Shown here piece by piece: positions 42,666-63,981 of a DNA stretch of 64,000 nt. A program made the translations under genes and the position numbers. This stretch comes from Beroe forskalii (lineage: Eukaryota > Ctenophora > Nuda > Beroida > Beroidae). Below the pieces are notes generated by a model. That model was not told the DNA's origin. It worked only from the letters and a program-made list of their open reading frames with translations, and ran no database searches. The stretch spans positions 186,001 to 250,000 of the forward strand of contig WFMF01000247.1 of NCBI GenBank assembly GCA_011033025.1, in the 5' to 3' direction. The first letter of the stretch is position 1, and the number at the start of each line of letters is the position of its first letter.

Positions 42666-43945
42666 TAAGATAAGATAACGTCACGGTATTCCTCATTCGT
42701 CTTTTTCAGTATTTCTGATTCAGTTGTCACTATGTGCAGAAAATGCTGGGTAAATAGATATACCTACTGTTGTTAAGGATACCCTCTCGCTATCCAAGTC
42801 CTAACTGACTATCCTGGACCCCCAACTCTCTCAGTCCCCTTTCCGTTGTTCCAATTGATGACAAGAACTTAATCAAATGAAATCGTAGCAAGAGTAATAA
42901 ATAACAATACAAATAACAAATCTGGTCTTTAGAAACTAAACGAACTCAGCTATTAAGAGTTTGCTCTAACCGACGTAAAGATCTATAAATCGATCAGAAG
43001 AAGTAATGGAAGTCCCGTTTCCAATTCGGAGCTCCTTAAATACTCCCTCTTTTGACAAACAGTGCATAAAATATGGAATTCCCAGACTTACTTACTTTGG
43101 GGTGGAACGGTTTATTCGGCTGAAGCCCTACTAACCGTGCCGTCAGGAACAACCTCTGCTGGCTGAGCCTAAGGCTCCCTGAGATATACAATATTAATAC
43201 TACCAATATGATATGCTGCGACGATCTTCCCGGAGCCTAGATGATTGTCGCCAAACCTGCAGCATGCAATCCCTTATGGAGCAAGCCCAAAAGGGAAGAC
43301 AGAGACCAAACTACAAGGTGTAGTACCTGAGAGGAGTCGCACACTAGGAGTGCTTTGACCTGGAGATATTATCTATTAAGTTGGAATTCCCAGACAAATT
43401 TCAATAAAAATATCAGTACAGAAGGGTTCAAATTATCTAAAATGCAGTAATTCCAAATAAAACCTTCTACACTCGACTCGTGAAGGAATCTTGTACTGGA
43501 AATTCTACTGCATCGATAGCATCAGTGATATTGGCCTTTCTGATTTATTCCCAAAAGTAACCCTATTTTTTCGAATTTGAAAAAAGGCGAAAATCCTCTA
43601 ATTTAATTTGGGGTATGAAATTTGGGGATTTTTGATTAAAATCCCCATATTTTCAAACCCCCAAAATTTCGATCCCTGGAATTATTGTCCCATGTTAATT
43701 TGTCTTGTAAGGTATTCTGCTTTTTACTAATTTATTCCCCTTTTGTCCAATTTTATTTTTAAGTTTTTATGTATATCTTGTTGACAACATTTCATGTTTT
43801 TGATTACTTCAGGAAGTCTATCTCCAAGGAGATCCTGAGGACGATAGGTTTTATATTATTCAGATAATGTAACCTGTCGAAACAAGTAGATTTTTGCAGT
43901 GTGGACTGACTTGACTCTTTGTGTTTCACTCGACTACAGTCTTAC
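42666..43945. other. 5' flank of the N-RAG gene; no further gene
   Basis: A partial copy of the GGGGATCGAAATTTC MITE family lies at 43586-43720 (TTTGGGGATTTTTGATTAAA, then AAATCCCCATATTTTC). The rest shows nothing recognisable. Confidence 0.45.
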
Positions 43946-44045
43946 AGTGTAATACTTGCATACCATTTCAAAGCAATTAATAAAGATCAGAGTAGTACTA
44001 GTATTCATAAGCACCATAAATCTACAATCAATCAGGATATGAGCA

Positions 44046-47000
44046 ATGAGTCAAGCAGAACATAACAACAATTTGCAAAGGCTTTGTCGAATATGTGGTT
44101 CTAGAAGAAATAAGGGCAGACCATATAGATGCCAAGCATTTGAAGATGGCCTGAAAGAAACTTTTGGTATTGATATTTCTGATGATAAAAGTGATATTCA
44201 TCCTAAGTAAGTTTTTACTGATTTTTGGATGTGCTATGAAAATTCTATATAGTTATACACCACCAAAACCGTTGGACGGTTGGTCTAGTAACCCCCCGCT
44301 GGTTTGGATGTGATCAGCACATTTTGTCTCTTTTCAGGTTCCGTTGTCACATCCAAACCCGCGGGGGGTTACTAGACCAACCGTCCAACGGTTTTGGTGG
44401 TGATATCTTGACAGATGTATTCGGAGCCCCGTTTTTCCGACCCCCGTTACTCGGACCCCCGTTACTCGGAGCCCCGTTTTTCCGACCCCCGTTACTCGGA
44501 CTCCCGTTACTCGGACTCCCGTTACTCGGACCCCCGTTACTCGGACCCCGTTATCCCCCCGGACTTCAAGTTATTCGGACCCCGTTATTTGGACCCCGTT
44601 ATTCGGACCCCCGTTATTCGGACCCCCGTTATTCGACCCCCCAAGTATTCGGACCCCGTTATTCGGACCCCGTTACCGACCCCGTTATTCGGACCCCAAG
44701 TATTCGAACCCCCGCTATTCGGACCCCGTTATTCGGACACCCGTTATTTGGACACCCGTTATTCGACACCCGTTATTCGGACCCCGTTATTCGACCCCGT
44801 TATTCGACCCCCGTTATTCAGACCTCCCTTATTCCGGACCCCGTCGAAAATCCCATGTAAATATCAATTTCTTCAAATCCCTAATTTCTACAAAACATCC
44901 GTGTACTCACGTGTGCTGAAATATAGCAACCAGATCTAATTTCACGTGCATTATTCGTATTTAAACTCATTTCAACGTAATCACGTCAAAAATCCTGTGT
45001 AAATATCAATTTCTTCGAATCCCCTAATTTCTACAAAACATCCGCGTGTACTCACGTGCTGAAATATAGCAAACAGGTCTTATTTCACGTGCATTATTCG
45101 TATTTAAATTCATTTCAACGTAATCAAGTCGAAAATCCCGTGTAAATATCAATTTCTTCAAATCCCTAATTTCTACAAACTTCCCACATTTAGTCCCTGC
45201 GAGACATGAAGAAACCATTATTAGTTCACCATTGTATCACAGAATAGGGCTACAGTACTATTTTTCGTCATAAACGCAATTTCAACCATTTTGCAGCTCA
45301 ATTTTAGAGGCTTCACATGACGACATATTTCGACCGATCACCTTGAAACTATTTTCATAGCTAAATCTTGAGGTCTAAAAGCAAAATATCGACGTAAAAC
45401 ATTATCCGATGAAAACTCTCTGAGTTAGAGATGTTCAAAGTAGTGCAAAATAGCGTTTTATCGCAAAATACGTTATTTTAGTGGTTTTACACAATTTTGA
45501 TGACGTCATCACAGCACCAAAATAGGCTCAAATCAATTTCCCATATAGCCTATTAAGCAATTCCGCCTTAGTAGAACATACTTTGACCGGTCTCATCTCA
45601 AGATACGTTGTACATCTCACTCGTTTAAGTTTTGACCTATAATTTGGAAATCGATGTTTCACCGTACCTTAGAAAATCGCGTATATCTCCATGAAAAATC
45701 GAGATAGCCCGATGATCCGTATGATTTTCTGAAAGCTCTTTAAATTTCCAACTAAAGATTTTCCAACATTTTTGAGCTATCTCCATTCCTTCTTGGTGAA
45801 AAATGCGCACAAAGATGACCTAAAAAAGAAATAAAATTTCGCTAAGTTGATGACGTCATAGTGACGTGAAAATGACGTCACCAGAACTTCTCTTAGCCTA
45901 TAACATTTTCCCATCTTAGATCAACAAAACCTGACCTCGATCATGGCTCTACCATTTCCCGTTCTTGACATCTCATCGTTTCCAAATTTGCTCCCAATTA
46001 TCATGATATTAAATCTCCTTATTATATTATATTACCACCAAAACCGTTGGACGGTTGGTCTAGTAACCCCCGCTGGTTTGGATGTGATCAGCCCATTTTG
46101 TCTCTTTTCAGGTTCCGTTGTCACATCCAAACCCGCGGGGGTTACTAGACCAACCGTCCAACGGTTTTGGTGGTGATATCTTGACACATGTATGTAGTTT
46201 GAACCCATGTTACTTGCCCAAAGGCAGTTTGGACCCACGTTACTTGCCCTCACGTAGTCCCAAACCCACGTTACTAGCCCACACGCAAGTCTAACCCAAA
46301 TCGTTACTTACCCAGACGAAGTCCCAAACTATTTTATTCTAACTTGGAATTACTAGAATTGATATATTTCTTAATTTCTACAAATCGTCCACATGAACTC
46401 ACGTGCTGAAATATAGCAACCAGATCTAATTTCACGGCATTATTCGTATTTAAACTCATTTCAACGTAACCAAGTCGAAAATCCCGTGTAAATATCAATT
46501 TCTTCAAATCCCCTAATTTCTACAAATCGTCCGTGTGTACTCACGTGCTGAAATATAGCAACCAGATCTAATTTCACGTGCATTAGTCGTATTTAAACTC
46601 ATTTCAACGTAATCAAGTCGAAAATCCCGTGTAAATATCAATTTCTTCAAATCCCCTAATTTCTACAAAACGTCCGCGTGAACTCACGTGATTCACTATT
46701 GCATCGTATATTTCCATCCCTAGTCACTTCGAGACATGAAGAAACTATTGTCAGTTCACTATCGTATCACAGAATAGGGCTACAGTACTATTTTTCGTCA
46801 TAAACGCAATTTCAACCATTTTGCAGCTCAATTTTTAGAGGCTTCACATGACGACATATTTCGACCGATCACCTTGAAACTATTTTTTATAGCTAAATCT
46901 CGAGGTCTAAAAGCAAAATATCGACGTAAAACATTATCCGATGAAAACTCTCTGAGTTAGAGATGTTCAAAGTAGTGCAAAATAGCGTTTTATCGCAAAA

Positions 47001-50000
47001 TACGTTATTTTAGTGGTTTTACGCGATTTTGATGACGTCATCACAGCACCAAAATAGGCTCAAACCAATTTCCCATATAGCCTATTAAGCAATTCCGCCT
47101 TAGTAGAACATACTTTTTGACCGGTCTCATCTCAAGATACTTGGTACATCTCACTCGTTTCAGTTTTGACCTATAATTTGGAAATCGATTTTTCACCGTA
47201 CCTTAGAAAATCGCGTATATCTCGATGAAAATCGAGATAGCCCGATGATCCGTATGATTTTCTGAAAGCTCTTTAAATTTCCAACTAAAGATTTTCCAAC
47301 ATTTTTGAGCTATCTCCATTCCTTCTTGGTGAAAAATGCGCACAAAGATGACCTAAAAAGAAATAAAATTTCGCTAAGTTGATGACGTCATAGTGACGTG
47401 ATAATGACGTGTTTTGGGAGCCACAGCACCCTCTCCAAGCTACAAACACACGGTCTTTTTCATAACCCCAGAAATCTGTCTAAGACTTGTTTCAACAGCA
47501 AAGAACTTAGGATTCCACCTAGATTCATCACTGACATTCACCCTCAGGTTGATAAGCTCAAAGTAAAATGCCCCAGAGTCTTCAGAAAACTGTGCAAATG
47601 AAATCATTTTTCTGTTGAACAAATGCAACAACTGGTACAAGCTGTTGTCATTTCTTCCTTGATTATTGCAATTCTCTATTATGGAACTCACTCAAATAAC
47701 TTAAGAACCCTGCAGAACATACAAAACAGGCATGTGCAGCTATTCTTGGCCTAAGGAAAAGAGACCCTAAAACTGAACACCTCAAATCACTTCATTGGCT
47801 TAAGGTGCCTGAGAGAATTGAATTCAAAAATTCTTTTAACTGTCTTCAAAATCATCAATGGAATTGCACCCAATTATCTTGTTCACCTCATCAACTACAA
47901 CAATATCAGTGGAAGTAGAACTCCTTCTCTAAGATCATACATACCAAAAAACTCGAATGGGTTCTAGATCTTTCTTTGCTATGCCCCTGTTATGGAATAG
48001 TTTACCCCTTTGAAGTAGAATCTGCTGCTCAATAACTGAATTTAAAAACTAAGCTAAAAACATTTCTTTTCAATAGGTCATTTAAATTGTAATCTAACTG
48101 TTTACTGGATGTAACTTCGATTCTTGAGCCACACTGTCACACAGTATATTATGGGTTCTGTTTTTTAGCACACAATAGTCTTAATTTATTCTTACGATTT
48201 GTTTCTGTGACAGTTTTAAAGTATTCCACACAGTTGTATAGGTACAGAGTATTAATTTATTGTGTAACCTCGTTACTGTGTTTAAGCTACCATATTTTAT
48301 TATTATTATTATTATTATTATTATAAAAAAGAAATAAAATTTCGCTAAGTTGATGACGTCAAAGTGACGTGATAATGACGTCACCAGAACTTCTCTTATA
48401 GCCTATAACATTTTCCTATCTTAGATCAACAAAACCTGACCTCGATCATGGCTCTACCATTTCCCGTTCTTGACATCTCGGCTTTCCAAGTTTGCTCCCA
48501 ATTATCATGATATATATTATATATTATAGAATATCTTAGAAATCCACTAGTAGACGAATGAAACTGCGGGGTTAGGAGAGGGAAATGGTGAAGGTACTAG
48601 CTCGAATATAATTCTTCATAGCCTATACAAAATTTTCAGGTTAGTAAATTACTGTCAAAATCAATTCACAAGTAATTCATTGTAATCTGTAATACATCAT
48701 TTATTAAATCTGAAATAAATCAAATATCATCAAAATATCAATGTATCCGAAATACAACTGATAAAAATTAAATCAGTATTAAATTGAAAAGCAAAAAATG
48801 TTTAGCCAGTGACTAGCTAAACAGGGGGTGAATTTGAAAAAAGAAAATACTTATCTATATATTATATATTATATATATTATATATTATATATTATATATT
48901 ATATATTATATATTATATATTATATATTATATATATTATATCACCCTGTGACACTCAAATCTCAACTTATACCCCTGGCCAGTTTTCTTTTTACCATAAT
49001 GTGCCCTGGCCAGGGCGGGAATTAAATCCAAGGCCAAGTGATCTAATCAAGTAATCAGATACATAAATGTGTGCCAGTACATTGATCATTTACATGTAAA
49101 AGATTCATGATTGGAGCAAAGATAATTGAAATTTTGCATTCATTACCTCTTGAAATAAAATATATTTTGAAAGTACTTGTTAACTGTCACCCTTTAAATC
49201 TTGCATTATTGCTATTTATTTATTAATATTGTTGACTTTATTTCAGTATTAATTGGTGTACCATATATCTTTCAATTACTTCAGTACGAATTTGTTATCT
49301 CCTTATAATCTTAATTTTAATGCAGGAACCTCTGTTTCAAGTGTCAGTTGCATGTGTCTGAAAACTTCACTCCTAGTGGTAAGTCCATTTCCAGCAACAC
49401 AATTGCTACTAAATTTCATTGAAAAAGAAAAGATTTGAACTGTTTCAATGCTTCCAAAATATATCATTCTAGTGCATGTCATAATGATATTTTGAAGGTA
49501 GCCAAAGAATGCCTCTGATGACGATAATCACATGATTTTCGAAAGCTTCTGAATACAATTCTCTCGTATCAGTTATTTCGTTTAAACTTCAACCTCTTGA
49601 GTTTTGCCTCTATTAAGATTAACGAAAATGAAAAACGACTAACACAACTGGTAATATGAACCACTCCAGTTTTTTAGCAGCTCAGCAAGGTTCTAGGAGC
49701 TTGAGAGGTTTTTGACAGATAAATAAATGACTAGGGCCGGTTATACTGCTTTGCATCACCTGGAGTACCACTGGAGTGATAGAAATCGCTCTATATGTTT
49801 ATGTGTGAACTAGTAAGACTCATAAGGACCTCACCATGTTGTAGAGCTTAAAATTTTAATCTAAGACAAGTATTTTCAAAGGAATCCACCATTCAAAGGA
49901 AATTTGTGCAGCTTTATAACTTTATAACCCAAAAAGCATAAAATGTTAATAACTTGTTCAACTATGGTTGCATATACATCTCTTTTGAAACATATGTTGA

Positions 50001-52079
50001 ACATATCAAGCACTACAATTAATGCTGTAAAAATGAGTAACCTAACCCTTAAAATGCGCCAGATACGAATTTTTTCCTGTTCCCAATCGCGTTTTTGTTT
50101 TACAAAAAGGCATTGAGAAAAGGTTAGCAGAGATCGTGTTTTGTGGGGGTTGTGTGTATACTACCTTTACGCGTACTGTTAAATCTGAAATAGGTGGTGG
50201 TGCTGCGCGCGACCAAACTTGGTCGTATGTCGTCGTATTTCGTCGTATGTCACTTTTTCGATCAACTGCTCCTTTATAATATCACTCGCGTCAGATTAGC
50301 TTGGTGTAGTGGCATGCTTCGCATTATGGGCTGCAGCTAGCTAACTGGGCTGCTAAGTAGGTATTTGAGTTCAATGCTCCGTTCATGCTGATGTTCTTTA
50401 TCAAAAATTTAACAATTCTTTATTCATAAAATCAAAACTTAATCCATTTTCACGGCATCAATCCAATCAGATTGGATTTTAATCACACAGCCATTTGGAC
50501 TTCTTCAAGTAGCGGGCAATTCGGCCAATTTACAGTGGGCAGTATTAGTGCCATCAGTTATGAATGATCTAAAGAATTGACTAGAGGAAAGTAAAACATG
50601 AGAGTTTGTCTCGATTCATGATTGATAACAACAATGATAATTGATATATCTGAATCTTTAATCTTGGTCAGTTATTAATAATCATATTGTGTATCCCAAT
50701 CTTGAAAATATCAAGGCGGGGTACAATATTAGCGAACATTGCAATGGTTTGATATCTGCAACGCAACACAAAAGAAAATTTAACGCGTAACGAAAATGGT
50801 GATCATAGTTATGAAACTCTGAACGGCGCGCAACGAATCTTCAAAGAGTTCTATGAAATGGCGGGAACGCGCGCGCGAACATTTGGCACGTGGAACGAAA
50901 TCGCCCACGTGATATTTAGATCTGCGCGCGTTAATTCGAACTTGTAGGAGAGAGAAATGTATATATCGCCCGCATAACGAGGAATATTTATAAAATTGAT
51001 TCAATGATGTTAGAATTGCGATGTCACACTTGATACGATTCAGATAAATCGTAAATCTATTGAATACCAACTCTTGCTCTTAATTCCCGTAGGTGTACGC
51101 CCGCGATTGTATTTTGATTAGTGAGGTCACTTCCCCTAACCAGGGGTGTCGCGAACGCGTAAACTAGGGACCTGGTTAGAGCAATGAGGTCACCATTATG
51201 CTTTATCGTCAACTCACTATGTCAGTAAATAAGACGGACAACGGTCAAATGACAGCGTGTTCTAATAGTAAATATCAGCCCCGGGGAACAGGAAATTAAG
51301 CGCCTGCATACGAGAACAATCAAAAACGCACAAGAAATGCTCCGGCAGGCGCAATTCTTGTTGAAAACTGTATTCTTCTAGTTTCATGAAATTTTGTAGA
51401 AGGTATCGATTGAAATTCATAACTTAGTCATTTTATATCCATGAGCACTGAAGGGTATCCTTTTGACTAGATTCCTTTATTTGTTTTCATCACCGCACGT
51501 TGAGGCGGAGCCTTTGATCAGGGCATTCAGAGTTATATATATATAATATATATATATCCAATTTGAATATAATTTTGTGAGGTCACTTGTGTTATTTGAA
51601 CCTTGAATTGATAAGAAAATCTTAAAGATTTGACCACCAAAATTTGAGTTATGTTCGTTGACACAATATGGGAAAATTATTTTGTTGACAGTGACACGAG
51701 GCGTTGATGTAATCAGACTTTAAAAGATACTTCAATCAGCTGTTGATTTTATTATAAAATTATGACGAACGACTGTTTCTAACGTAAAATTGTCTGAAAA
51801 TTATCACTCAAGCATTATTTTTTAGTTTCCTGTTTCAGGTCTTGATCTATGCTCCAAGTGCAAATCATTTATGTCATATTGCCATATCCTTAATATTATT
51901 ATGATGATATGCTTTCAGACTTTATACCTGTTGAATGGAAGGGTCACCATGATGACGATGAATGCTGGGTTTGTGACCAAAAGAGTGTCCCAAGGCCGGA
52001 TATATACTTCCCCAGTTCAAGCAAACAGTCTTCCAAAAGAAGGAAGGCAGATTCACAGCAAAGTACGGTCAAAAAGGAG
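44046..52079 (+). CDS. N-RAG: protein like the N-terminal zinc region of RAG1, copy 1
   Basis: Exons 44046-44206, 49326-49378 and 51919-52079 join in phase. Start ATG at 44046 (MSQAEHNNNLQRLCRICG). The product matches the N-terminal region of RAG1 in order: CRICG, then FGIDISDDKSDIHP (RAG1 FRIDVKADVDSIHP), CFKCQLHVSENF (RAG1 CHNCWSIMHRKF), VEWKGHHDDDECWVC (RAG1 MEWHPHTPSCDIC), then a basic SSKQSSKRRKAD stretch like a nuclear signal. The RAG1 region binds zinc and is regulatory, not catalytic; free-standing N-RAG proteins are known in invertebrate transposons and genes. Exon 3 ends in phase 0 (GAG/GTAATT), and downstream exons in this gene were not identified apart from the RING exon at 57735, which could be joined in phase. 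A 4.8-kb composite insertion fills intron 1. Confidence 0.82.
44259..44402. repeat. Large palindrome (foldback), copy 1
   Basis: Arms of about 60 bp starting CACCACCAAAACCGTTGGAC and ending with its inverse, spacer ATTTTGTCTCTTTTCAGG. The arms include GGTTGGTCTAGTAACCCCC. Followed by GATATCTTGACA. Confidence 0.92.
44415..44840. repeat. GGACCCCGTTATTC minisatellite
   Basis: About 28 irregular units of 14-16 bp: first CGTTACTCGGACCCC, then CGTTATTCGGACCCC. The two long + strand ORFs here (44324-44860 and 44415-44939) are translations of the repeat and not genes. Confidence 0.92.
45220..46025. repeat. Module body D1, with CRE-like palindromes
   Basis: Shared with 46720-48510. Holds several TGACGTCA palindromes (about 45500, 45852, 45872). 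D1 shows the uninterrupted form of the site where the LINE fragment inserted in D2. Confidence 0.88.
46033..46174. repeat. Large palindrome (foldback), copy 2
   Basis: Same arms as at 44259 (ACCACCAAAACCGTTGGACG) with small changes, again followed by GATATCTTGACA. Confidence 0.92.
46370..48510. repeat. Module II: 144-bp tandem array and body D2
   Basis: Three ~144-bp units at about 46370-46690 resemble those at 44850-45200; the body from 46720 matches D1, with the insertion at 47411-48325 and the remainder at 48326-48510. Confidence 0.85.
47411..48325 (+). mobile_element. 5'-truncated non-LTR retrotransposon with ~56-bp target duplication
   Basis: The + strand encodes, with frameshifts, an ORF2 C-terminus of CR1/L2-group type (LKSLHWLKVPERIEFKILL, INGIAPNYLVHLI, SGSRTPSLRSYIP) and ends in a (TTA)n tail at 48297-48323. 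The flanks 47355-47410 and 48326-48381 are identical but for one base and are single in the sister module D1 near 45825, so they are the target site duplication. Confidence 0.88.
48856..48945. repeat. TATATTATA microsatellite
   Basis: Repeats of TATATATTA. The ORF 48828-49025 crosses it and is an artefact. Confidence 0.92.
50075..51360. mobile_element. 1.3-kb insertion in N-RAG intron 2
   Basis: Absent from unit 2, where CGAATTTTT runs directly into GAAAACTG at about 59521-59532. TTTCCTGTTCCC near the left end recurs inverted (GGGGAACAGGAAA) at about 51282-51295, and the last ~60 bp form a hairpin GCGCCTGC...GCAGGCGC. No transposase ORF; class unknown. Confidence 0.7.
51441..51559. mobile_element. 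119-bp insertion with 7-bp flanking duplication
   Basis: TATATCC is present at 51434-51440 and again at 51553-51559, single in unit 2 (about 59600). Interior includes CACCGCACGTTGAGGCGG and an AT run. Confidence 0.7.
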
Positions 52080-52633
52080 GTAATTATTTAACTTACAGTC
52101 TGGTTTTAACTATATTGTGAAGAAACTTAGAGAGTCTGGTTGTGCCTGCAGAGAAGTGTGATGCCTTATTGTAACAAATTTAGTAAGCAACTAATTAATA
52201 AATAATAAAAAAAAAAAAAAAAAATTGCTATTATAAAGCACTACTATCAAGCAAGCTTATACTCAGTAGTGCTAAGCCAAATAGAAAAGCTAAGTTAAAA
52301 ATATCAGAAAAGATAATACCAGTAAAGATAACATGCTGAACAGAGAGCTAAGTCTAAACAGAAAAGCCCATAAATAAGGAAATTCAAATAAGCATTTAAA
52401 GTTAAGGTAAATCAAATATCAAATAAATACTGTATCTAACAAATTTCAAAATAATCATGCTATGAGTTTCTTGATGTCAATATCAGATGTGTTAAAAAGA
52501 TAAGTCTTCAAGAGTCTCTTAAAAGAATCAACATCATTAGCTGTAGTAATATCAACTGGCAAACGATTCATCAATTTGGGACCAATTACACTAAAGCTAT
52601 GGAAACCATACTTTGAACTACAAATAGGGACAA

Positions 52634-55386
52634 TTAGTTTAAGATAGTGGCCATGATGTTCATAAGTAAAAAGATCTTGTAGATACTTAGAGCAAGACCA
52701 ACTACAGATTTATATGACAACAGACTTAACTTGAATATAACACGTTTCCCGACATTGAGCCAATGCAAATCATTTAAGTCATTTTCCAAGTGATCATGCT
52801 TATACTTTCCAGTCACAGTTTTGAGCAAGCATTTTGAAATGAGTTGTAACTGGTAGAGTAACTTTTTCAGAAATACCAAAATACAATGCATTACAATAAT
52901 CCAAGCAGGAGACCACCAAGGAATTGACCACAGTCTTAAGTTGATCCTTACTGAGCAGAAAGCGAATTTTATTGATATTTCGGATTGTCCTGAAAGATTT
53001 CTTTTTCAACTCAGTAACCTGCTTATTCAAGGTTAACCCAGAATCCATGTAAATTCCAAGGTTTCTAATGTTGGTGACAAATCTGATGGAAGTTCCTGAA
53101 GGAAGATTTATGCCTCTGATTGTGACCTTGTTCAAGAGTTTACTGGAACCAAACACTATGAACTCAGTTTTTGATTCGTCTAACTGAAGATAGTATCTAT
53201 CCATCCAGTATCTAATTTTCTCAAAGCACATCTGTATTTCATGAACTAATACCACATACTGATCAGATGGCTTAAAACAGAGGAAAATTTGATGATCATC
53301 TGCATACCCATGAATAGAAAATCCAAGACTTTTAACATACTTGTAGATAGATCTAACATATATATTGAATAAAACAGGCCCAAGCACTGAACCTTGAGGT
53401 ACTCCAAACTTTATCAAAATTTCATCAGAAACACTGTTGTCTAAACGAACTCTTTGAGAACGACCTGTGAGAAAAACTCTTGAACCACTTCAAAGCAGTC
53501 CCTTTCAATCCAATTTCATTTTCAAGGATCTTCAGCAGCAGATTGTGGTCAACTGTGTCAAATGCTGCACTGAGGTCCAACATCATCATTATAGTACAAG
53601 TTTTTTGATCAGAGGCAACCAACAAATCATTCCAAATTCTAACTAATAATGTTTCAGTACTATGGTCTTTTTTGTAGGCAGACTGCTCCTCACAATTCAG
53701 ATTGTTTCTGGTAAGATGGTCATTAAGCCTTTGAGGACCACCTCTCAATAAGTTTCCTGCAAGGAAAGTAAGATTAGACACAGGCCTGAAGTTTTTCAAA
53801 GTATTAGCATCAAGATGGTCACCTTTTAGCAAAGGTATGACATCAGCAAGCTTAACACCTTCCATAGATCCTGTTGACAAGGAGAGGTTAACCATGTGGA
53901 CTAAAGTAGGAAGGATGTTTTCTAGGTTCTCACTATACAGAATGCCTGGAAGAATATCAGCTGGAGAACATTTTATACCACTATTTGTTATGATTTCCTT
54001 GATTTCAATATTGGTGGGTTCAAAGTCATACAGAAATTCCAAATTAGTATTTGATCAAATTGATTGCTCTCATTATTTGGAGTCATGTTAGATCGTATCT
54101 TATCAATCTTTTCCTCAAAGAAGTGATTGAAGGGACAGCCAGTTGTGACATATCTTCTGTGAAATCTGGTAATGTTTAGACTTTTCATTTGGTCAAGTTC
54201 CTTGTTCACAAGTTGGTAGAGTGTTTTAGGGTTGCCATGGGCTTTGTGTAACAAATTGAGAAGTATTCTTTCTTGATGATAGCCATGTCAGTACATTTTT
54301 GCAAAGGTCTTTGTATTCGATTTTATTATCAATTGATCTCTTTACTCTTTTCTGCCCCTCCTTTCTTTCCTTTCTTAGTTTTCTATATTCAGAATCAAAC
54401 CATGGTGCTTCATTAACAATTGAAACTGTTTTTGTAGTAAGAGGAGCATACTCATCAAGCAGTTTAGTGGTGCCCAGAGACAGTTTGCTGACTGAATCTT
54501 GGAAGGATAGCCCATCTTCAAGACAGTGTGTGAAGATACTATTAAGATTTACAACAAATTCAGGTTCATCTTTAACATCTTTTAATTTCCTATAGACTAT
54601 TTCTTTGAAGAATTTTTTCTCAAAGGAAAGTTCAAAATTGCAGTATACAGGATAATGATCTGATCCAAGAGTATTTTCATCATCAATTTTCACAGTACAC
54701 TGTAGCTGTGCATTCATTGAGAATGTCAGGATGTGATCTATTGAACTACCAGAAATATGGGTTGGATCAAAGATATGCCTAGTCATACCACAGGACTCGA
54801 GAGTTTGGAGAGCCTGCTGATAAAGACTGACACTTGTCTTATTAAAATCAATATTGATATCACCAGCAAGAACAAGGCAATCACATTTGAGTAACAGATC
54901 AGACAACAGTTTATCTATTTCTTTGTTAAACATAGAGCACATATTTCCAGGTCTATAAACAACGAGAAAGATGATTTTTGTGCCATTTTTTGATTTCATA
55001 ACCGCTGACAAGCCTTCAAATGTTGTGAACTTTGGGATGCTCAAAGGTGTCAGGGCAATTCCTGATTTGTATATCAGAGCAACACCACCTCCTCTCCTAT
55101 CAGCTCTAAAATCATGCAAGATAGAGTAACCATATTGTTTAATAATTGCTGTTGTTGGATTACTTTTACTGACCAACCATGTTTCACAGATTGCAGCAAT
55201 ATCAACCTGATTGTCTTCAAGAGTAATCATGACATCATTTACTTTGTTTTCTATGGATCTTGGATTGTACAACATAAAGTGTAACTCACCCCTGCTCAAC
55301 TTTCCGCCTGATGCCCCTAATATGTTCTTTGGTAAAAAGGGATAGACTTTTTGAGTTTTTCTTGAAATGCTAACAGTTGAGGACAT
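52634..55386 (-). pseudogene. LINE ORF2: endonuclease and reverse transcriptase, frameshifted
   Basis: The first piece (55386-54226) is an APE-type endonuclease: CETWLVSK, VYRPG, AGDINIDF, GSSIDHIL and LGSDHYPV are all visible. The RT follows in pieces: 54254-53988, 54042-53425 (KNFRPVSNLTFL, MMLDLSAAFDTVDH), 53417-52800 (GVPQGSVLGPVLFNIY, HGYADDHQIF) and 52891-52634 (LNDLHWLNVGKRVIFKL). At least four frame changes separate the pieces, so this copy cannot make an intact ORF2, although each catalytic motif remains. Confidence 0.92.
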
Positions 55387-56708
55387 GTTGGATCATTAGC
55401 CGAATGCCTACAATCAGATTTCTTTGCATCCATACAGTTTACACAAGATACAGCTAATGCATCACTTTTGACTGAACAAACCCGAGTTTCATGGCTTGCA
55501 GCACAATGCCCACATTTGGCAGAATTCTTACAGTCTTTGCTGTGGTGACCAAATTGCTGACAGTTGTAACACCTAAGAATATAAAAGTTGTCATATACTT
55601 TGCAGACAGGTTGTGAACCCACATAGATACGATCAGCCTGCTTTGCAAGGATTGATCGGACTAAATTACTCACTCTGATTATAGCCTTAAAACAGGTTGG
55701 CCGAGATTTAAGAGGAGTGACAGCAACAATGTCAAACTTTTTATCCTCAATTGAAGTCTCTGACTCAAACACTGCTTTCAAACCACTGTTCTGTTTCAAA
55801 ATCATCTCACAGAGCTCCTCTTTCCCATATTCCCTTGTTAGACCCACTACATTAATTGTGGGGGTCCTGGAAGAAACTTGCTCAATCTGATGCTGAGGAA
55901 GATTGCTGTTCAAATTATTCTTCAGAGTCTCTGCATCAGCCTTTGATTGTAGGATAATTGCAGTGTCTCCTGATTTTTTCATTTCAAATGCATTCAACAC
56001 ACCAACTCCATCATCTACACAAGCCTTTTCCAACAAAACCCTATCAACAGATTTACCTTGAGGATCCTTTTTAATGACCATCATGTGTCTGAGATGGTCA
56101 ACTTTCTGTTTGTCATTCCATGGGTTGCCAGAAGGTTCAGGAGTTGAAGATGAGGAGCCACATGGTTCAGGTGATAAAGTTCTGTTATTCATACCCTGCA
56201 GCAGAGATTTCAAAGCAGACAATTCCTTACTGAACTCACTTTGCATCAAGTCAATTTTCTTCTCCAAGATGTCAACACGATCTTGATCTGAGACACAAGC
56301 AAGTTTTTCTTTTTCAGTTATACAGTGATTGCATAGAAAGAAAAAGCCCCCAAAACGTTTCTCAAAACCCCGAGTCTTATTTGTAGCAGGTAATAAATGA
56401 TTCGTGAAAGAAGAGTTTGCAGCAACACAACAGGCTTCCTCACAACCAATTGCATGAAAAACATTTTTACATCCCCAACATTTTATACCATGAGTTGATA
56501 TGTCAATATCACACTTACATGTGGTACACTGACCATTCACAATCAGGTTAAGAGCAGATAACTTTGGAGGTAGGTTGGATTTTGATATCACAACTTTCAT
56601 AGGCTTTGGAACAAGGTTACTATCAACTTCCTCAGTCTCATTATCATCACATGATGAAGATTGACGATCTTCTTCAGGTTCTTTATCAGTTGCCTGTAAG
56701 AATACCAT
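55317..56708 (-). CDS. LINE ORF1: PHD-like zinc finger and CCHC zinc knuckle protein
   Basis: 463 codons, intact. N-terminus acidic; residues ~60-135 form a PHD-like finger (CTTCKCDID, CWGCKNVFHAIGCEEAC, FLCNHC). A coiled-coil follows (DILEKKIDLMQSEFSKEL), then an RNA-binding-like region, then the knuckle CYNCQQFGHHSKDC and CGHCAASHETRVC near residue 390-420. In this element class ORF1 coats the RNA. Overlaps the start of ORF2 by about 70 bp, as in other CR1-group elements. Confidence 0.9.
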   Translation of the reverse strand: MVFLQATDKEPEEDRQSSSCDDNETEEVDSNLVPKPMKVVISKSNLPPKLSALNLIVNGQCTTCKCDIDISTHGIKCWGCKNVFHAIGCEEACCVAANSSFTNHLLPATNKTRGFEKRFGGFFFLCNHCITEKEKLACVSDQDRVDILEKKIDLMQSEFSKELSALKSLLQGMNNRTLSPEPCGSSSSTPEPSGNPWNDKQKVDHLRHMMVIKKDPQGKSVDRVLLEKACVDDGVGVLNAFEMKKSGDTAIILQSKADAETLKNNLNSNLPQHQIEQVSSRTPTINVVGLTREYGKEELCEMILKQNSGLKAVFESETSIEDKKFDIVAVTPLKSRPTCFKAIIRVSNLVRSILAKQADRIYVGSQPVCKVYDNFYILRCYNCQQFGHHSKDCKNSAKCGHCAASHETRVCSVKSDALAVSCVNCMDAKKSDCRHSANDPTCPQLLAFQEKLKKSIPFYQRTY

Positions 56709-57734
56709 CCTCAGTTAGTTAATTTAATATGTGTTGTGTTGTAAGTTTAATTAATCGTCAGTAAAATAAGAAAACATGAAATTACGAAGCTTTTTTAATT
56801 TAGAAACATTTTTTGATCTGGAAATAAATTAAGAGACTTTTATAGCCCCATAAAATAAGAATATTTATTACTGAAAATTTTTCCTCAGATTAATCAATAA
56901 TTGAAATGCATGAGATAAATTTATATGAAACCGCTTTATACCTATAAGTTTGTCAAATTCTTTAACTACGTGCTCGACCCGGCAAAAGGATCTAAGAGTT
57001 AGTCAACTGCGGTGTCACTTGATTCTCTTATATGGCTTTCGAAAAACGAATTTTTTATATTAATGTAAAAATAATATTGCATTAAATTGACAAATTGAGA
57101 GTCACGAAATTAAGGCACATAAAATTAATCTGCATATAATTGTATAATGTATAATTAAAGAAACATGAAATTAAGAAGCAGTTTATTAAAAAACTTTTTG
57201 CCCAGTTAACTGCTTTCTTAATTTCATGTAATAAGGTAGTGTGGACTAATAGGGATAAGGGATAATAACCTATGAACACTGTGTGAGTATATTGGTACCA
57301 GGTTAACCTGGGACTTGGTACAATAGAAGCCAAGTTTTTGTAGATTTTTTCTGAACTGGCCTGTTGTACTCAATACAAATTTAGGGTTCTCCTTCATAAT
57401 ATCAAATTCAATTCCATGTTGTTATACTCTGTTTTTTGCCTTGGAAGTTTTTAAATTGTTTGCTGTAATGCTGTATGATTCGAAATAGCTGTAACGTTTA
57501 TATTTCATAAATTTTAAAACATGTCATGTGTGTAATGAAATAATGATAATGACTGATGCGCTCATAAGTCCTTTAATTATGATCACTCAACTACAACAAT
57601 TAAATTCATAGTTTCCTGACTTTAAGGCCATTGTACGTAAGCATTATGCAATGATGATTTGATATTGAGTTAGAGATCGTAGGTCCAATCCCCGGCCAAA
57701 TTATTCACAATTTAATTGTATAAATTGATATATA

Positions 57735-57846
57735 ATGTACCAGCAGGAGCCGATTAAACTCCGTGACATCAACGAGTGTATAACATGTGGTATCTGCAAG
57801 GGTTATCTGATAGACGTGGCGACAGTTACTGAGTGCCTTCACTCTT
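57735..57846 (+). CDS. PCGF: PCGF-type RING finger, first coding exon, copy 1
   Basis: ATG at 57735 (MYQQEPIKLRDINECITC), then CGICKGYLIDVATVTECLHS and a donor (TCTT/GTGAGT). This is the start of the RING of Polycomb group ring finger proteins (PCGF3/5-like), which partner RING1/2 in PRC1 ubiquitin ligases acting on histone H2A. The same exon is repeated at 61229-61340. A CAG just inside the exon (CCAG/CAGGAG) could also act as an acceptor in phase 0. Confidence 0.88.
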
Positions 57847-57954
57847 GTGAGTAGGAAATTGTGTTTATTGTTTATAATCATGTTTTGAATACCTATTTAA
57901 GTACAGTAAGAGAGTAAGGTAATACTTATCTTATACTCTTATAATATAATACAT

Positions 57955-58150
57955 GTAGGTCATAAAGGTACTCTATATGGAACGAAAATCCCCATATTTT
58001 CGTTTCCCACCAATTCTCAATATAACGTCATTGTCATACTTTAACATTGGTACTAATATTCCAAAAAATATCCCTAATTTTCGTGCTCATAAAATTTGGA
58101 TCCCCAGAATTGCTTTCCCTGGTTATTTCATCTCGTAAAGTATCATAATT
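57955..58150. mobile_element. MITE-like repeat (GGGGATCGAAATTTC family), unit 1 boundary
   Basis: AACGAAAATCCCCATATTTTCG, ATTGGTACTAATATTCC and AAAATTTGGATCCCCAG. Inverted relative to 16760. A near-copy lies at 61435-61600, at the matching place in unit 2. Confidence 0.7.
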
Positions 58151-58180
58151 CTATTTCCATGCAGGAATTTCAAGTGTAAT

Positions 58181-61100
58181 GCTCATACCATTTCAAAGCA
58201 ATTAATAAAGATCGAGTAGTACTAATATTCATAGCACCATAATTCTACAATCAATCAGGATATGAGCAATGAGTCAAGCAGAACATAACAACAATTTGCA
58301 AGGCTTTATCGAATATGTGGTTCTAGAAGAAATAGGGCAGACCATATAGATAAAGCATTTGAAGATGGCCTGAAAGAAACTTTTGGTATTGATATTTCTG
58401 ATGATAAAAGTGATATTCATCCTAAGTAAGTTTTTACTGATTTTTGGATGTGCTATGAAAATTCTATATAATTATTAAATCCAATGCCAAGTGATCTAAT
58501 CAAGTAATCAGATACATAAATGTGTGCCAGTACATTGATCATTTACATGTAAAAGATTCATGATTGGAGCAAAGATAATTGAAATTTTGCATTCATTACC
58601 TCTTGAAACAAATATATTTTGAAAGTAACTTGTTAACTGTCACCCTTTAAATCTTGCATTATTGCTATTTATTTATTAATATTGTTGACTTTATTTCAGT
58701 ATTAATTGGTGTACCATATATCTTTCAATTACTTCAGTACGAATTTGTTATCTCCTTAAAATCTTAATTTTAATGCAGGAACCTCTGTTTCAAGTGTCAG
58801 TTGCATGTGTCTGAAAACTTCACTCCTAGTGGTAAGTCCATTTCCAGCAACAAAATTGCTACTAAATTTCATTGAAAAAGAAAAGATTTGAACTGTTTCA
58901 GTAAGCCAAAATATATCATTCTAGTGCATGTCCATAATGATATTTTTGAAGGTAGCCAAAGAATGCCTCTGATGACGATAATCACATGATTTTCAAAGCT
59001 TCTGAATACAATTCTCTCGTATCAGTTATTTCGTTTAAACTTCAACCTCTTGAGTTTTGCCTCTATTTTAAGATTAACGAAAATGAAAAACGACTAACAC
59101 AACTGGTAATATGAACCACTCCAGTTTTTTAGCGGCTCAGCAAGGTTCTAGGAGCTTGAGAGGTTTTTAACAGATAAATAAATGACTAGGGCCGGTTATA
59201 CTGCTTTGCATCACCTAGAGTACCACTGGAGTGATAGAAATCGCTCTATATGTTTATTTGTGAACTAGTAAGACTCATAAGGACCTCACCATGTTGTAGA
59301 GCTTAAAATTTTGATCTAAGACAAGTATTTTCAAAGGAATCCACCATTCAAAGGAAATTTGTGCAGCTTTATAACTTTATAACCCAAGAAGCATAAAATG
59401 TTAATAACTTGTTCAACTATGGTTGCATATAATACATCTCTTTTGAAACATATGTTGAACATATCAAGCACTACAAATGCTGTAAAAATGAGTAACCTAA
59501 CCCTTAAAATGCGCCAGATACGAATTTTTGAAAACTGTATTCTTCTAGTTTCATGAAATTTTGTAGAAGGTATCGATTTAAATTCATAACTTAGTCATTT
59601 TATATCCAATTTGAATATAATTTTGTGAGGTCACTTGTGTTATTTGAACCTTGAATTGATAAGAAAATGTTAAAGATCAGACCACCAAAATTTGAGTTAT
59701 GTTCGTTCGACACAATATGGGAAAATTATTTTGTTGACAGTGACACGAGGCGTTGATGTAATCAGACTTCAAAAGATACTTTAATCAGCTGTTGATTTTA
59801 TTATAAAATTATGACGAACGACTGTTTCTAACGTAAAATTGTCTGAAAATTATCACTCAAGCATTATTTTCTAGTTTTCTGTTTCAGGTCTTGATCTATG
59901 CTCCAAGTGCAAATCATTTATGTCATATTGTCATATCCTTATTATTATGATAATATGCTTTCAGACTTTATACCTGTTGAATGGAAGGGTCACCATGATG
60001 ACGATGAATGCTGGGTTTGTGACCAAAAAGAGTGTCCCAAGGCCGGATATACTTCCCCAGTTCAAGCAAACAGTCTTCCAAAAGAAGGAAGGCAGATTCA
60101 CAGCAAAGTACGGTCAAAAAGGAGGTAATTATTTAACTTACAGTCTGGTTTTAACTATATTGTGAAGAGACTTAGAGAGTCTGGTTGTGCCTGCAGAGAA
60201 GTGTGATGCCTTATTGTAACAAATTTAGTAAGCAACTAATTAATCGTCAGTAAAATAAGAAAACATGAAATTACGAAGCTTTTTTAAGGCTGAAAATTAA
60301 TTTAGAAACATTTTTTGATCTGGAAATAAATTAAGAGACTTTTATAGCCCCATAAAATAAGAATATTTATTACTGAAAATTTTTCCTCAGATTAATCAAT
60401 AATTGAAATGCATGAGATAAATTTATATGAAACCGCTTTATACCTATAAGTTTGTCAAATTCTTTAACTACGTGCTCGACCCGGCAAAAGGATCTAAGAG
60501 TTAGTCAACTGCGGTGTCTCTTGATTCTCTTATATGGCTTTCGAAAAACGAATTTTTGATATTAATGTAAAAATAATATCGCATTAAATTGAGAGTCACG
60601 AAATTAAGGCACATAAAATTAATCTGAATATAATTGTATAATGTATAATTAAAGAAACATGAAATTAAGAAGCAGTTTATTAAAAAACTTTTTTGCCCAG
60701 TTAACTGCTTTCTTAATTTCATGTAATAAGGTAGTGTGGACTAATAGGGATATGGGATAATAACCTATAAACACTGTGTGAGTATATTGGTACCAGGTTA
60801 ACCTGGGACTTGGTACAAAAGAAGCCAAGTTTTTGTAGATTTTTTCTGAACTGGCCCGTTGTACTCAATACAAATTTAGGGTTCTCCTTCATAATATCAA
60901 ATTCATTTCCATGTTGTTATACTCTGTTTTTTGTCTTGGAAGTATTTAAATTGTTTGCTGTAATGCTGTATGATTCGAAATAGCTGTAACGTTTATATTT
61001 CATAAATTTTAAAACATGTCATTGTGTAATGAAATAATGATAATGACTGATGCGCTCATAAGTCCTTTAATTATGATCACTCAACTACAACAATTAAATT

Positions 61101-61600
61101 CATAGTTTCCTGACTTTAAGGCCATTGTACGTAAGCATTATGCAATGATGATTTGATATTGAGTTAGAGATCGTAGGTCCAGTCCCCGGCCAAATTATTC
61201 ACAATTAAATTGTATAAATTGATATATAATGTACCAGCAGGAGCCGATTAAACTCCGTGACATCAACGAGTGTATAACATGTGGTATCTGCAAGGGTTAT
61301 CTGATAGACGTGGCGACAGTTACTGAGTGCCTTCACTCTTGTGAGTAGGAAATTGTGTTTATTGTTTATAATCATGTTTTGAATACCTATTTAAGTACAG
61401 TAAGAGAGTAAGGTAATACTTACCTTATAGTACATGTAGGTCATATACTCTATATGGAACGAAATTTGGGATTTTTAGGGAAAATCCCCATATTTTCGTT
61501 TCCCACCAATTCTCAATAAAACGTCATCGTCATACTTTAACATTGGTACTAATATTCCAAAAAATATCCCTAATTTTCGAGCTCATAAAATTTCGATCCC
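58181..61600. repeat. Segmental duplication, unit 2 (compact)
   Basis: Same order as unit 1 with none of its four insertions. Serves as an empty-site reference for unit 1. A fragment of the unit's left edge recurs at 62445-62510. Confidence 0.93.
58269..60124 (+). pseudogene. N-RAG copy 2, with small indels
   Basis: Exons 58269-58425, 58779-58831 and 59965-60124 correspond to those of copy 1, with the same splice sites. Exon 1 has lost single bases at two places (TTGCAAGGC, AATAGGGC) and two more at ATAGATAAAGC, removing the CRICG reading frame. Exon 3 has one added A (GACCAAAAAG) and lacks TA in GGATATAC, shifting the basic tail. Exon 2 is intact. These changes would disable it unless they are assembly errors. 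Confidence 0.8.
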
Positions 61601-63981
61601 CAGGTAGTAAGGGAATCATGTGGAATGCCTGCGAAAAAATTCCTTACTAAGGTTTTAGTGGCTCAATGGACTCTAATTAGGTGTCTAGAGCCACCAAAAA
61701 ATTTATTCAAATTTTCGATGCCCGGAACCCTCTGGTTGGCCACGCCCTTTTTTGACCGTGGGAATTTTGAAGAAAAATTATTTAAAATTTATTCAAAAGC
61801 AACTAGGGCATGATTATGCTCTAACCCAATGTTTTTCGGCACGAGAAATAGTTTAAAACCAAAATCTGGGTCCTAGAACCAATATTTCGGTCATTATGGG
61901 CCACGCCCACTTTTTCCGCCGAAAATCGTCAGTTTTCATATGATATAAACTAGGACATGATTATACTCGAATCCTAGGTTTTTGGCACGAGAAATCAATT
62001 AAAGCAATTTTCTAAACGCTAAAACTACTATTTACCAGGGCATTTCGGACCACGCCCACTTTTGGGCATCAATATTATGGCCGAAAATCTGAAGTTATTA
62101 TACGTCTTCTATTCAATTAGGGTATGATTATACTCGAATCCTAGGTATTTTGGCACAAGAAATCGATTAAAGCAATTGTCAAAACGCTTACACCAATATT
62201 TTGGGCATTTTGGACCACGCCCGTCGCCCACTTCTTCGCATCAAAATCTGAAGTTATTATATCTGAAGTTATTATATATGTCCAACTAGGGCATGATCAT
62301 ACTCGAATCCTAGGTTTTTTGGAACGAGGAATCGATTGAAGCAATTGCCAAAATGTTTTCACCAATATTTCATGTATTTTGGACCACGCCCACTTTTTCA
62401 CATCAATATTATGGCTGAAAATATTGATGGCTGAAAAAGTTATTTCTTTCCTGGTTATTTCATCTCGCAAGGTAGGTATCATAATTCTATTTCTATGCAG
62501 GAATTTCAAAGATTGTAAAAATTTGTTGAACATATTTACAGTAATTATGATCCTCCTAGATCTTGATATAATATAGGATAATCAAACACCCTTAGGATAC
62601 GTTTATATGAATTATCACACGAGCGAAGCGAGTGTGATAATTCGAATTATTGCTCGAGCCGAAGGCGAGTGCAAATATTCAATTATCACTCGAGCCGAAG
62701 GCGAGTGTGATAATTGATATAAACGTATCCTTAGGGTGTTTGATTAATCTATTATATAACGTGAGAAACGGGCGGATATTTACACTGGTTTTCCAATAAG
62801 AAAGCGAATTTAGAAGCCTTTAAATATGAAAATTCTTTGAAATAGAGGGCCTGAAATTGAATCTTGAAAATATCAAGCTTCGAAGGGCCGGGAATTTTTA
62901 GATGGTGAAGAGCGCCTATGTATATTCAAATTTGCCTAAGAAATTATGAAGAAAAACACAAGTCCGGAAGATTCATTAACTTTGATCATATCTTTTGATT
63001 CAACAAGGTACTATAAAGAGATTGTCGATCGAAATGTATAACAACAAAATAGAAAAAACATTTCCGTGTAAGTGTGTAATGCCGTAACGGACGCACATTT
63101 ATCTATAGGCAAATTGCGGGCGGTGGCATTTGTTTAAAATGTAAAGATGTAAGAAGGGAAACACGATTCAAACAAGCGAAATTTCATCAACGTGTACGAC
63201 AAGTATACAAAACACCAAAACAAGAAACCTTAACGCAAAATAAAAGCTAGAGAATAAATTTGTATATGCTCGTGTATCGTTATATGTACAAGTGGTGAGG
63301 GTAAGTGATCCTTGTGGCACGTGGGTGCGCGGCTCATATAACGACTACCGAGTATACATAAACTCATTAAATCAAATCAAGATACCATGATAATGTATAC
63401 ACTGATGTATTGTAATGGAGTGAGAGCAAGTGGTCTTCAGGTTTTACTGGCACGTGCGTGCGCGGCTCATATAACGACTAAAGTGGCACATGAAACGAAA
63501 ACAAGATAACGTAATATGTATACACCGGTGTATCGCAAGGGAGTGAGAGCATTAACTATCAAAAAAGTCAGATTTAAATGATTTTACGTAGTAGATAAAT
63601 ACTAATCACAAAATTCTAAAGTTTTGATTTTTGGGGTGTGATAATTTTTCAAAGGTGTGATAACTGTTCTTTGAGGGGTGTGATAACTGTACAGTTATCA
63701 CACACCTGAAAAAATTATCACACCCCAAAATTTCTAAAATTTCAAAATCTTATGTAAAGTGTTTATCGACCATCAAAATCAATTTTTGAAGCCGTTGTAT
63801 AACAAAAATTATCGGAGCAAGAATTATATAACGATCGTTATATAGTGCGATTTAAATCAGGTCTGACAGTTATCATTGCTTCAGTTTGTAAGTCGTGTCT
63901 GGTGCAGCATTTACAGACGAGACAGACATGTCCACAATGCGATATCTTGATACACGAGACAGCACCCATGCAACATGTCGG
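61229..63981 (+). CDS. PCGF: Polycomb group RING finger protein (PCGF), 5' part
   Basis: Exon 61229-61340 (MYQQEPIKLRDINECITC...TECLHS) joins in phase 1 to exon 63885-63981 (FCKSCLVQHLQTRQTCPQCD, then HETAPMQHVG) with a donor GG/GTAAGT at the right edge. Together they make a complete C3HC4 RING: C-x2-C, C-x-H-x2-C-x2-C, C-x2-C. The ATG lies ten or so residues before the first zinc ligand, as in PCGF3/5. The family binds RING1 proteins in Polycomb repressive complex 1. The C-terminal RAWUL domain should follow outside the window. The first exon is duplicated at 57735, giving two potential first coding exons that encode the same residues. Confidence 0.9.
61800..62430. repeat. ~140-bp tandem repeat with GGACCACGCCCACTTTTT motif, about four units
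   Basis: Units share GATTATACTCGAATCCTAGG, GGCACGAGAAATCGATTAAA and GGACCACGCCCACTT. Short ORFs on both strands here are artefacts. Confidence 0.85.
62445..62510. repeat. Fragment of a third duplication unit
   Basis: TTTCCTGGTTATTTCATCTC, ATCATAATTCTATTTC and ATGCAGGAATTTCAA match 58118-58180, just left of unit 2. The match ends where the N-RAG exon 1 region should begin. Confidence 0.75.
62571..62758. mobile_element. Foldback MITE, ~188 bp
   Basis: Arms start ATAATCAAACACCCTTAGGA and run ~48 bp; the inverse ends near 62757. The core has CGAGCGAAGCGAGTGTGATAA and CTCGAGCCGAAGGCGAGTG repeats. Confidence 0.88.
63260..63560. repeat. Imperfect tandem duplication in the PCGF intron
   Basis: CACGTGGGTGCGCGGCTCAT / CACGTGCGTGCGCGGCTCAT with ATAACGACTA, and flanking GTATACACTGATGTAT / GTATACACCGGTGTAT, show two ~150-bp units. 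Confidence 0.7.
63628..63733. mobile_element. Foldback repeat, ~105 bp
   Basis: TTTTTGGGGTGTGATAATTT at the left is mirrored by AAATTATCACACCCCAAAA at the right; the centre has GATAACTGTACAGTTATC. Lies ~150 bp before PCGF exon 2. Confidence 0.88.

Follow-up and report, generated by a model that had tools for sequence, protein, structure and literature searches.

The source of the non-core third of RAG1, which includes a ubiquitin ligase RING, is still argued. Its central non-core domain (CND, residues 87-217) carries three CxxC motifs (C110/113, C175/178 and C210/213), binds two zincs and also double-stranded DNA, the latter without preference for recombination signals, and it has been studied in connection with nuclear import (PMC3124419); the same three CxxC motifs are described in invertebrate RAG1-like proteins (PMC7204232). 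A RAG1 N-terminal module that occurs as a unit free of the core is already known, namely in N-RAG-TP of Aplysia (PMC8355894; PMC2996935) and in the Chapa domain of Chapaev transposons, which in two subgroups is followed by a RING (PMC4411706). Some protostomes, cnidarians and a microalga are reported to have complete RAG1-like proteins and other eukaryotes to have fragments, and six Transib-like proteins are reported from ctenophores (PMC9435367). For the origin of the non-core part, one published view is that an old transposon ancestor already carried it in fused form (PMC4411706), the other that an N-RAG element was inserted into a Transib (PMC8355894). Among titles and abstract openings, a scope outside which most subscription journals fall, our literature search met no named fusion of a PCGF protein with the RAG1 zinc domain and no named RAG1 N-terminal domain from a ctenophore. 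Were a ctenophore to have a clear CND gene, the module would move toward the base of the animals.

The locus described here lies in a window of 64,000 nt from Beroe forskalii, the whole stretch of DNA that was analysed, and its features are collected in Table 1. An earlier note, made from the same DNA, had claimed three in-phase exons that encode the RAG1 N-terminal zinc region in the motif order CRICG, FGIDI..DIHP, CFKC, VEW..H, CWVC and basic tail. The exon coordinates, canonical borders and matching phases were all confirmed, and the six cysteines aligned in the claimed order.

Table 1. Features of the zinc-domain and RING locus, in window positions; a slash marks a splice point.
Feature	Position	Strand	Details
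CND exon 1, copy 1	44046..44206	+	C1 motif CRICG, FGIDI..DIHP; donor AA/GTAAGT; leaves phase 2 (two bases)
CND exon 2, copy 1	49326..49378	+	C2 motif CFKC; acceptor TGCAG/G, donor TG/GTAAGT; takes one base, leaves phase 1
CND exon 3, copy 1	51919..52079	+	VEW..H, C3 motif CWVC, basic tail; acceptor TTTCAG/A, donor GAG/GTAATT; takes two bases, ends phase 0
Non-LTR retrotransposon	52200..56747	-	zf-CCHC, endonuclease and reverse transcriptase ORFs; copy 1 only
PCGF RING first-half exon, copy 1	57735..57846	+	ATG 57735 or acceptor CAGCAG/GAG at 57747 (phase 0); donor T/GTGAGT
CND exon 1, copy 2	58269..58425	+	damaged: CRICG to YRICG, three indels
CND exon 2, copy 2	58779..58831	+	53/53 identical to copy 1
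CND exon 3, copy 2	59965..60124	+	two indels break the basic-tail frame
PCGF RING first-half exon, copy 2	61229..61340	+	phase-0 entry 61241; identical to copy 1, 111/111
PCGF RING second-half exon (FCKSCLVQHLQTRQTCPQCDILIHETAPMQHVG)	63885..63981	+	found once, after copy 2

Read by eye, canonical splice sites surround all CND exons in both copies, and in copy 1 the frames are open and the splice sites and zinc ligands intact. The product of copy 1, with the exons spliced by hand, reads MSQAEHNNNLQRLCRICG...TFGIDISDDKSDIHPKNLCFKCQ...FTPSDFIPVEWKGHHDDDECWVCDQ...KQSSKRRKADSQQSTVKKE. Left unspliced, exon 3 continues with V I I and then meets a stop at 52089-52091; our profile query of 128 residues includes this read-through VII, and a shorter form has 125 residues. 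We regard these as almost certainly real CND coding exons. A stretch resembling exon 2 (DLCSKCKSFM, from 51839) was inspected by eye and rejected, as it gives an immediate stop once joined to exon 1. At 43813-43872, some 170 bases ahead of the zinc block and on its strand, we saw by eye an exon-like end (cag/GAAGTC..., finishing with EVYLQGDPEDDRFYIIQIM and a stop), which is perhaps the last exon of a gene upstream. Intron 1 of copy 1 holds a short-period repeat of GTTATTCGGACCCC-like units at 44418-44844, and neither the Rfam scan nor the tRNA scan of the window gave any match.

The assignment to the RAG1 domain was supported by profile search. The Pfam family RAG1_imp_bd (PF12560) matched the three joined exons with 32.9 bits over a curated cut-off of 23.3 (E 6.6e-8), which is a significant match of the kind the earlier note had proposed to seek with the RAG1 N-terminal zinc region, and three further Pfam families stayed below their own cut-offs (E 0.0027, 0.045 and 0.097). 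The 125-residue form gave RAG1_imp_bd at E 7e-8, exon 1 by itself reached E 7.1e-4 (19.7 bits, under the cut-off), and exon 3 by itself matched no Pfam family at E<=1. All four shuffled controls were without any family at E<=1, and the reversed sequence matched an unrelated family, SUN, at 4e-4 and under its cut-off. Given these controls, E values near 1e-4 are background for a sequence of such composition, and a match of 7e-8 over the cut-off is not. A phmmer search of PDB sequences placed RAG1 chains as the top three of seven matches at E<=10; these were weak (E 0.0047, 0.016 and 0.016), with no individually significant stretch (best i-E 0.27). In an alignment of copy 1 to the RAG1 fragment, all six cysteines of C1-C3 coincide, as do the histidines of IHP and VEW..H. 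The locus thus resembles the RAG1 CND in its motifs C1, C2 and C3, in IHP and VEW..H, in the basic region after C3 and in the RING that then follows, and differs from RAG1 in its shorter stretch between C1 and FGIDI, in the introns that split the domain, in the PCGF type of the downstream RING, and in that a RAG1 core was not found.

In both copies, the next recognised exon on the same strand after the CND block is the first half of a PCGF RING. The two RING halves, joined by hand, matched 43 PDB sequences at E<=0.001, 12 of them below 1e-17. Eleven of these 12 are PCGF or BMI-1 by name, including a RING2-BMI-1 chimera (1.9e-24) and a 'B lymphoma Mo-MLV insertion region' protein, which is an old name of BMI-1; the remaining one is labelled COMMD3 (3e-19). 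By family member, chains of PCGF1 (7.6e-22), PCGF6 (2.5e-21), PCGF5 (1.5e-20) and BMI-1 (~3e-19 to 2e-18) were matched. The best of the other 31 matches was RNF4 (6.4e-8), with the rest at 1.4e-6 or weaker, and a RAG1 chain, as would speak for the ZDD-type RING of RAG1 and RAG1L, was not among the 43. Judged from these matches, the downstream RING is a PCGF RING. Its residues 3-64 match PCGF1, PCGF5, PCGF6 and BMI-1, its start looks native, and its intron lies, by eye, at the same place as in the PCGF paralogues on contig C162. Unlike the PCGF family, it has a RAG1-type zinc domain ahead of it in phase, and a RAWUL domain is not seen before the contig ends: the rest of such a gene was not found in the remaining 4.8 kb, and the six partial RAWUL matches in the genome all lie on other contigs.

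The phase-0 donor of exon 3 can be joined in frame to the acceptor at the RING exon, and in copy 2 the distance between them is ~1.1 kb. Because exon 3 ends in phase 0 and CAGCAG/GAG offers the RING exon an entry in that phase, a transcript could read zinc domain, basic tail and RING, which is the order in RAG1; such a phase match has a chance of 1 in 3. We consider a fusion of the CND to PCGF in at least one isoform to be a little short of an even chance. The earlier note had spoken of a separate gene, and in this claim the zinc block without a core stands, and the in-phase junction of exon 3 with the PCGF RING exon makes a separate gene one of two readings. Two neighbouring genes are quite possible as well, though distinctly below an even chance: one for a stand-alone CND (N-RAG) protein of ~128 residues and, downstream of it, an ordinary PCGF gene that has a promoter and start codon of its own. 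The CND protein would then close just past exon 3, or in a short fourth exon, and work by itself as a small nuclear zinc protein that binds DNA, to which we give the same guarded credence. This is favoured by the read-through of exon 3, which stops after three codons, and by a possible short last exon near 52152, in which the two copies are identical across 49 columns. Furthermore, an ATG stands in the PCGF exon itself (57735), three codons after an in-frame stop; counted from this ATG, the Ile of IKLRDIN is residue 7, and several PDB BMI-1 chains align residue 3 of the query to residue 7. As Ile stands at residue 7 as in the BMI-1 chains, this ATG looks native, and this speaks for two genes. 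A Met occupies the corresponding position at three further PCGF loci, two on contig C162 and one on C342; as their frames stay open for 9 to 22 residues upstream, these starts are themselves predicted. A CND exon was also not found upstream of these three other PCGF loci, by translated search and motif scan of ~9.5, 19.5 and 19.5 kb (chance-level matches, the best at E 0.52 on the opposite strand), which again favours two genes. However, two genes would demand the coincidence of a RAG1-type zinc domain ~1.1 kb before an in-phase RING exon, and the order of zinc domain and RING is also that of RAG1 and, as reported, of two Chapaev subgroups (PMC4411706). Scanned for promoters with a bacterial consensus, which is unsuited to this host, 57000-58000 gave fewer sites (4) than expected (6.2). 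Of the other PCGF loci, those on C162 form a second, older tandem pair (365585-382514, pieces of 84-92% identity), and the frame of the one on C342 (51397-51771) stops soon after the RING.

In copy 1, the distance between exon 3 and the RING exon is enlarged by the 4.5-kb non-LTR retrotransposon, which is flanked by an 8-base target duplication, TAATTAAT. In both copies, facing copies of ACATGAAATTA.GAAGC / GCTTTCTTAATTTCATGT lie between exon 3 and the PCGF exon (56774-57229 and 60263-60724), and by eye they look like a MITE-like element.

A further reading is that the exons are what survives of a DNA transposon (N-RAG-TP, Chapaev or RAG1L), as a domestication relic or as dead sequence: its N-terminal exons would remain and the transposase would be gone. 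N-RAG-TP and Chapaev are described as bearing this domain (PMC8355894; PMC4411706), Transib-like proteins are reported in ctenophores (PMC9435367), and copy 2 is decaying, all of which would fit such a relic. The locus shares with Aplysia N-RAG-TP and the Chapa domain of Chapaev a RAG1 N-terminal zinc domain without a RAG1 core, and with two Chapaev subgroups, as described, the RING after the zinc domain (PMC4411706). Set against the descriptions of those elements, however, it is low-copy, shows no terminal inverted repeats and has a Polycomb-type RING. The 125-residue query found only the tandem pair in the 216-Mb assembly of 1134 contigs (7 matches at E<=10, all on this contig), in an exon-by-exon search that can miss distant relatives, and exact inverted pairs of at least 14 bases and more than 1 kb apart were not found in 58000-62700. 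Moreover, the frames, splice sites and zinc ligands of copy 1 are intact, and this, the low copy number and the missing inverted pair speak against a relic. The missing RAG1 core points the same way, weakly. Family PF12940 had no match in this genome, nor in 14 control genomes that were equally silent, and a stretch of the human core gave three matches (best E 0.51), all on other contigs. A PF12560 search of the same genome also found nothing, though the exons are present; since known exons were missed, the exon-by-exon family search is blind for RAG1_imp_bd, and the PF12940 result is weak for the same reason. As far as these core searches reach, the claim in the earlier note of a RAG1 N-terminal zinc region that is split by introns and free of the catalytic core was supported. 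Pattern searches of a prokaryotic contig collection (31 and 112 matches) and a viral one (2 and 60 matches) confirmed no relatives, and since the collections are prokaryotic and viral, this says little about animals. Overall, a transposon relic appears improbable, and we are confident, short of certainty, that this is a host gene.

Self-comparison of the window showed that pieces of 43946-58107 are repeated on the same strand at 58173-61603, and one duplicated unit holds the PCGF exon together with the CND exons. In copy 2 the first zinc cysteine is gone (CRICG to YRICG) and the basic tail is out of frame, and the introns of copy 1 carry extra sequence that is missing from copy 2. In four aligned pieces, the copies differ by 49 substitutions in 3327 columns (1.5%). 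The exons hold 2 of these in 480 columns and the remainder 47 in 2847 (Fisher p 0.038, with the regions picked after looking), and this lower exon substitution is a mild sign of constraint. The exons contain five of the 26 indel events, all in exons 1 and 3, where 3.8 would be predicted from exon length, so that copy 2 at least was not protected. A substitution level of ~1.5% is usual for heterozygosity in marine animals, and the pair could also be an assembly artefact in which two haplotypes were placed end to end, leaving a single locus per haplotype. Insertions would then distinguish the two alleles, as would indels that are either real or sequencing errors. Besides the ~1.5% substitutions, the presence or absence of insertions is in line with this, as are the indels of copy 2, most of which lie in a TA repeat or in short runs of A, and the finding of only one second half of the RING. 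Against this, the contig crosses the junction near 58173 without a gap, and the other tandem PCGF pair in the assembly is older, so tandem duplication does occur in this genome. We hold the haplotype artefact, together with the allelic differences it implies, to be a real possibility, if somewhat less than an even one, and it is compatible with each of the other readings of the locus.

Our preferred reading, which we put slightly under an even chance as an overall explanation, is a low-copy, intron-bearing host gene that would encode a RAG1-type CND (equal to Chapa and N-RAG) with a basic tail resembling a nuclear import signal. Its most likely continuation would be the phase-0 splice into the downstream PCGF RING exon, and the resulting CND-basic-PCGF RING protein, if expressed, would have its modules in the order of the RAG1 N-terminus. 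The CND would probably bind double-stranded DNA without sequence preference and mediate nuclear entry, and the PCGF RING would probably pair with a RING1-type ligase on chromatin, so that the CND could serve as a targeting module for histone ubiquitination. In a broader form, a host gene whose RAG1-type zinc domain adjoins or is spliced into a PCGF RING and acts on chromatin or DNA is likely.

A ctenophore host gene with the zinc domain of the RAG1 N-terminus and a Polycomb PCGF RING fused in one protein is a tentative proposal. If the fusion is true, it would give the CND a testable function apart from recombination, and the RAG1-like plan of zinc domain, basic tail and RING ligase would exist as a chromatin protein independent of recombinases, in what may be the sister lineage of all other animals. 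RAG1 might then owe its front part to a host chromatin gene and not only to a transposon. The front module of RAG1 may belong to a host gene in an animal lineage of very deep origin.

Some further observations were made in the same assembly. Contig C1134 is a 13.3-kb mitochondrial-type contig of 17.5% GC, on which Pfam recognised cox1 (with four internal TGA), cox2, cox3, cob, nad1 and two antiporter-type nad genes; four of ten further ORFs scanned had no Pfam match, and ARAGORN found no tRNAs there in its bacterial setting, which can miss odd mitochondrial tRNAs. ATP6 was found on a nuclear contig, C176, beyond base 378,000, in three pieces over ~2.3 kb (E 1.5e-18, 0.0022 and 0.07). A nuclear ATP6 together with a compact, AT-rich mitochondrial genome that lacks tRNAs is a ctenophore hallmark, and the ATP6 pieces on C176 make a ctenophore source probable. 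Within the window, an ORF at 780-1322 narrowly missed the cut-off for the C8 domain of von Willebrand and mucin type (E 2e-4, 22.0 bits against 23.7).
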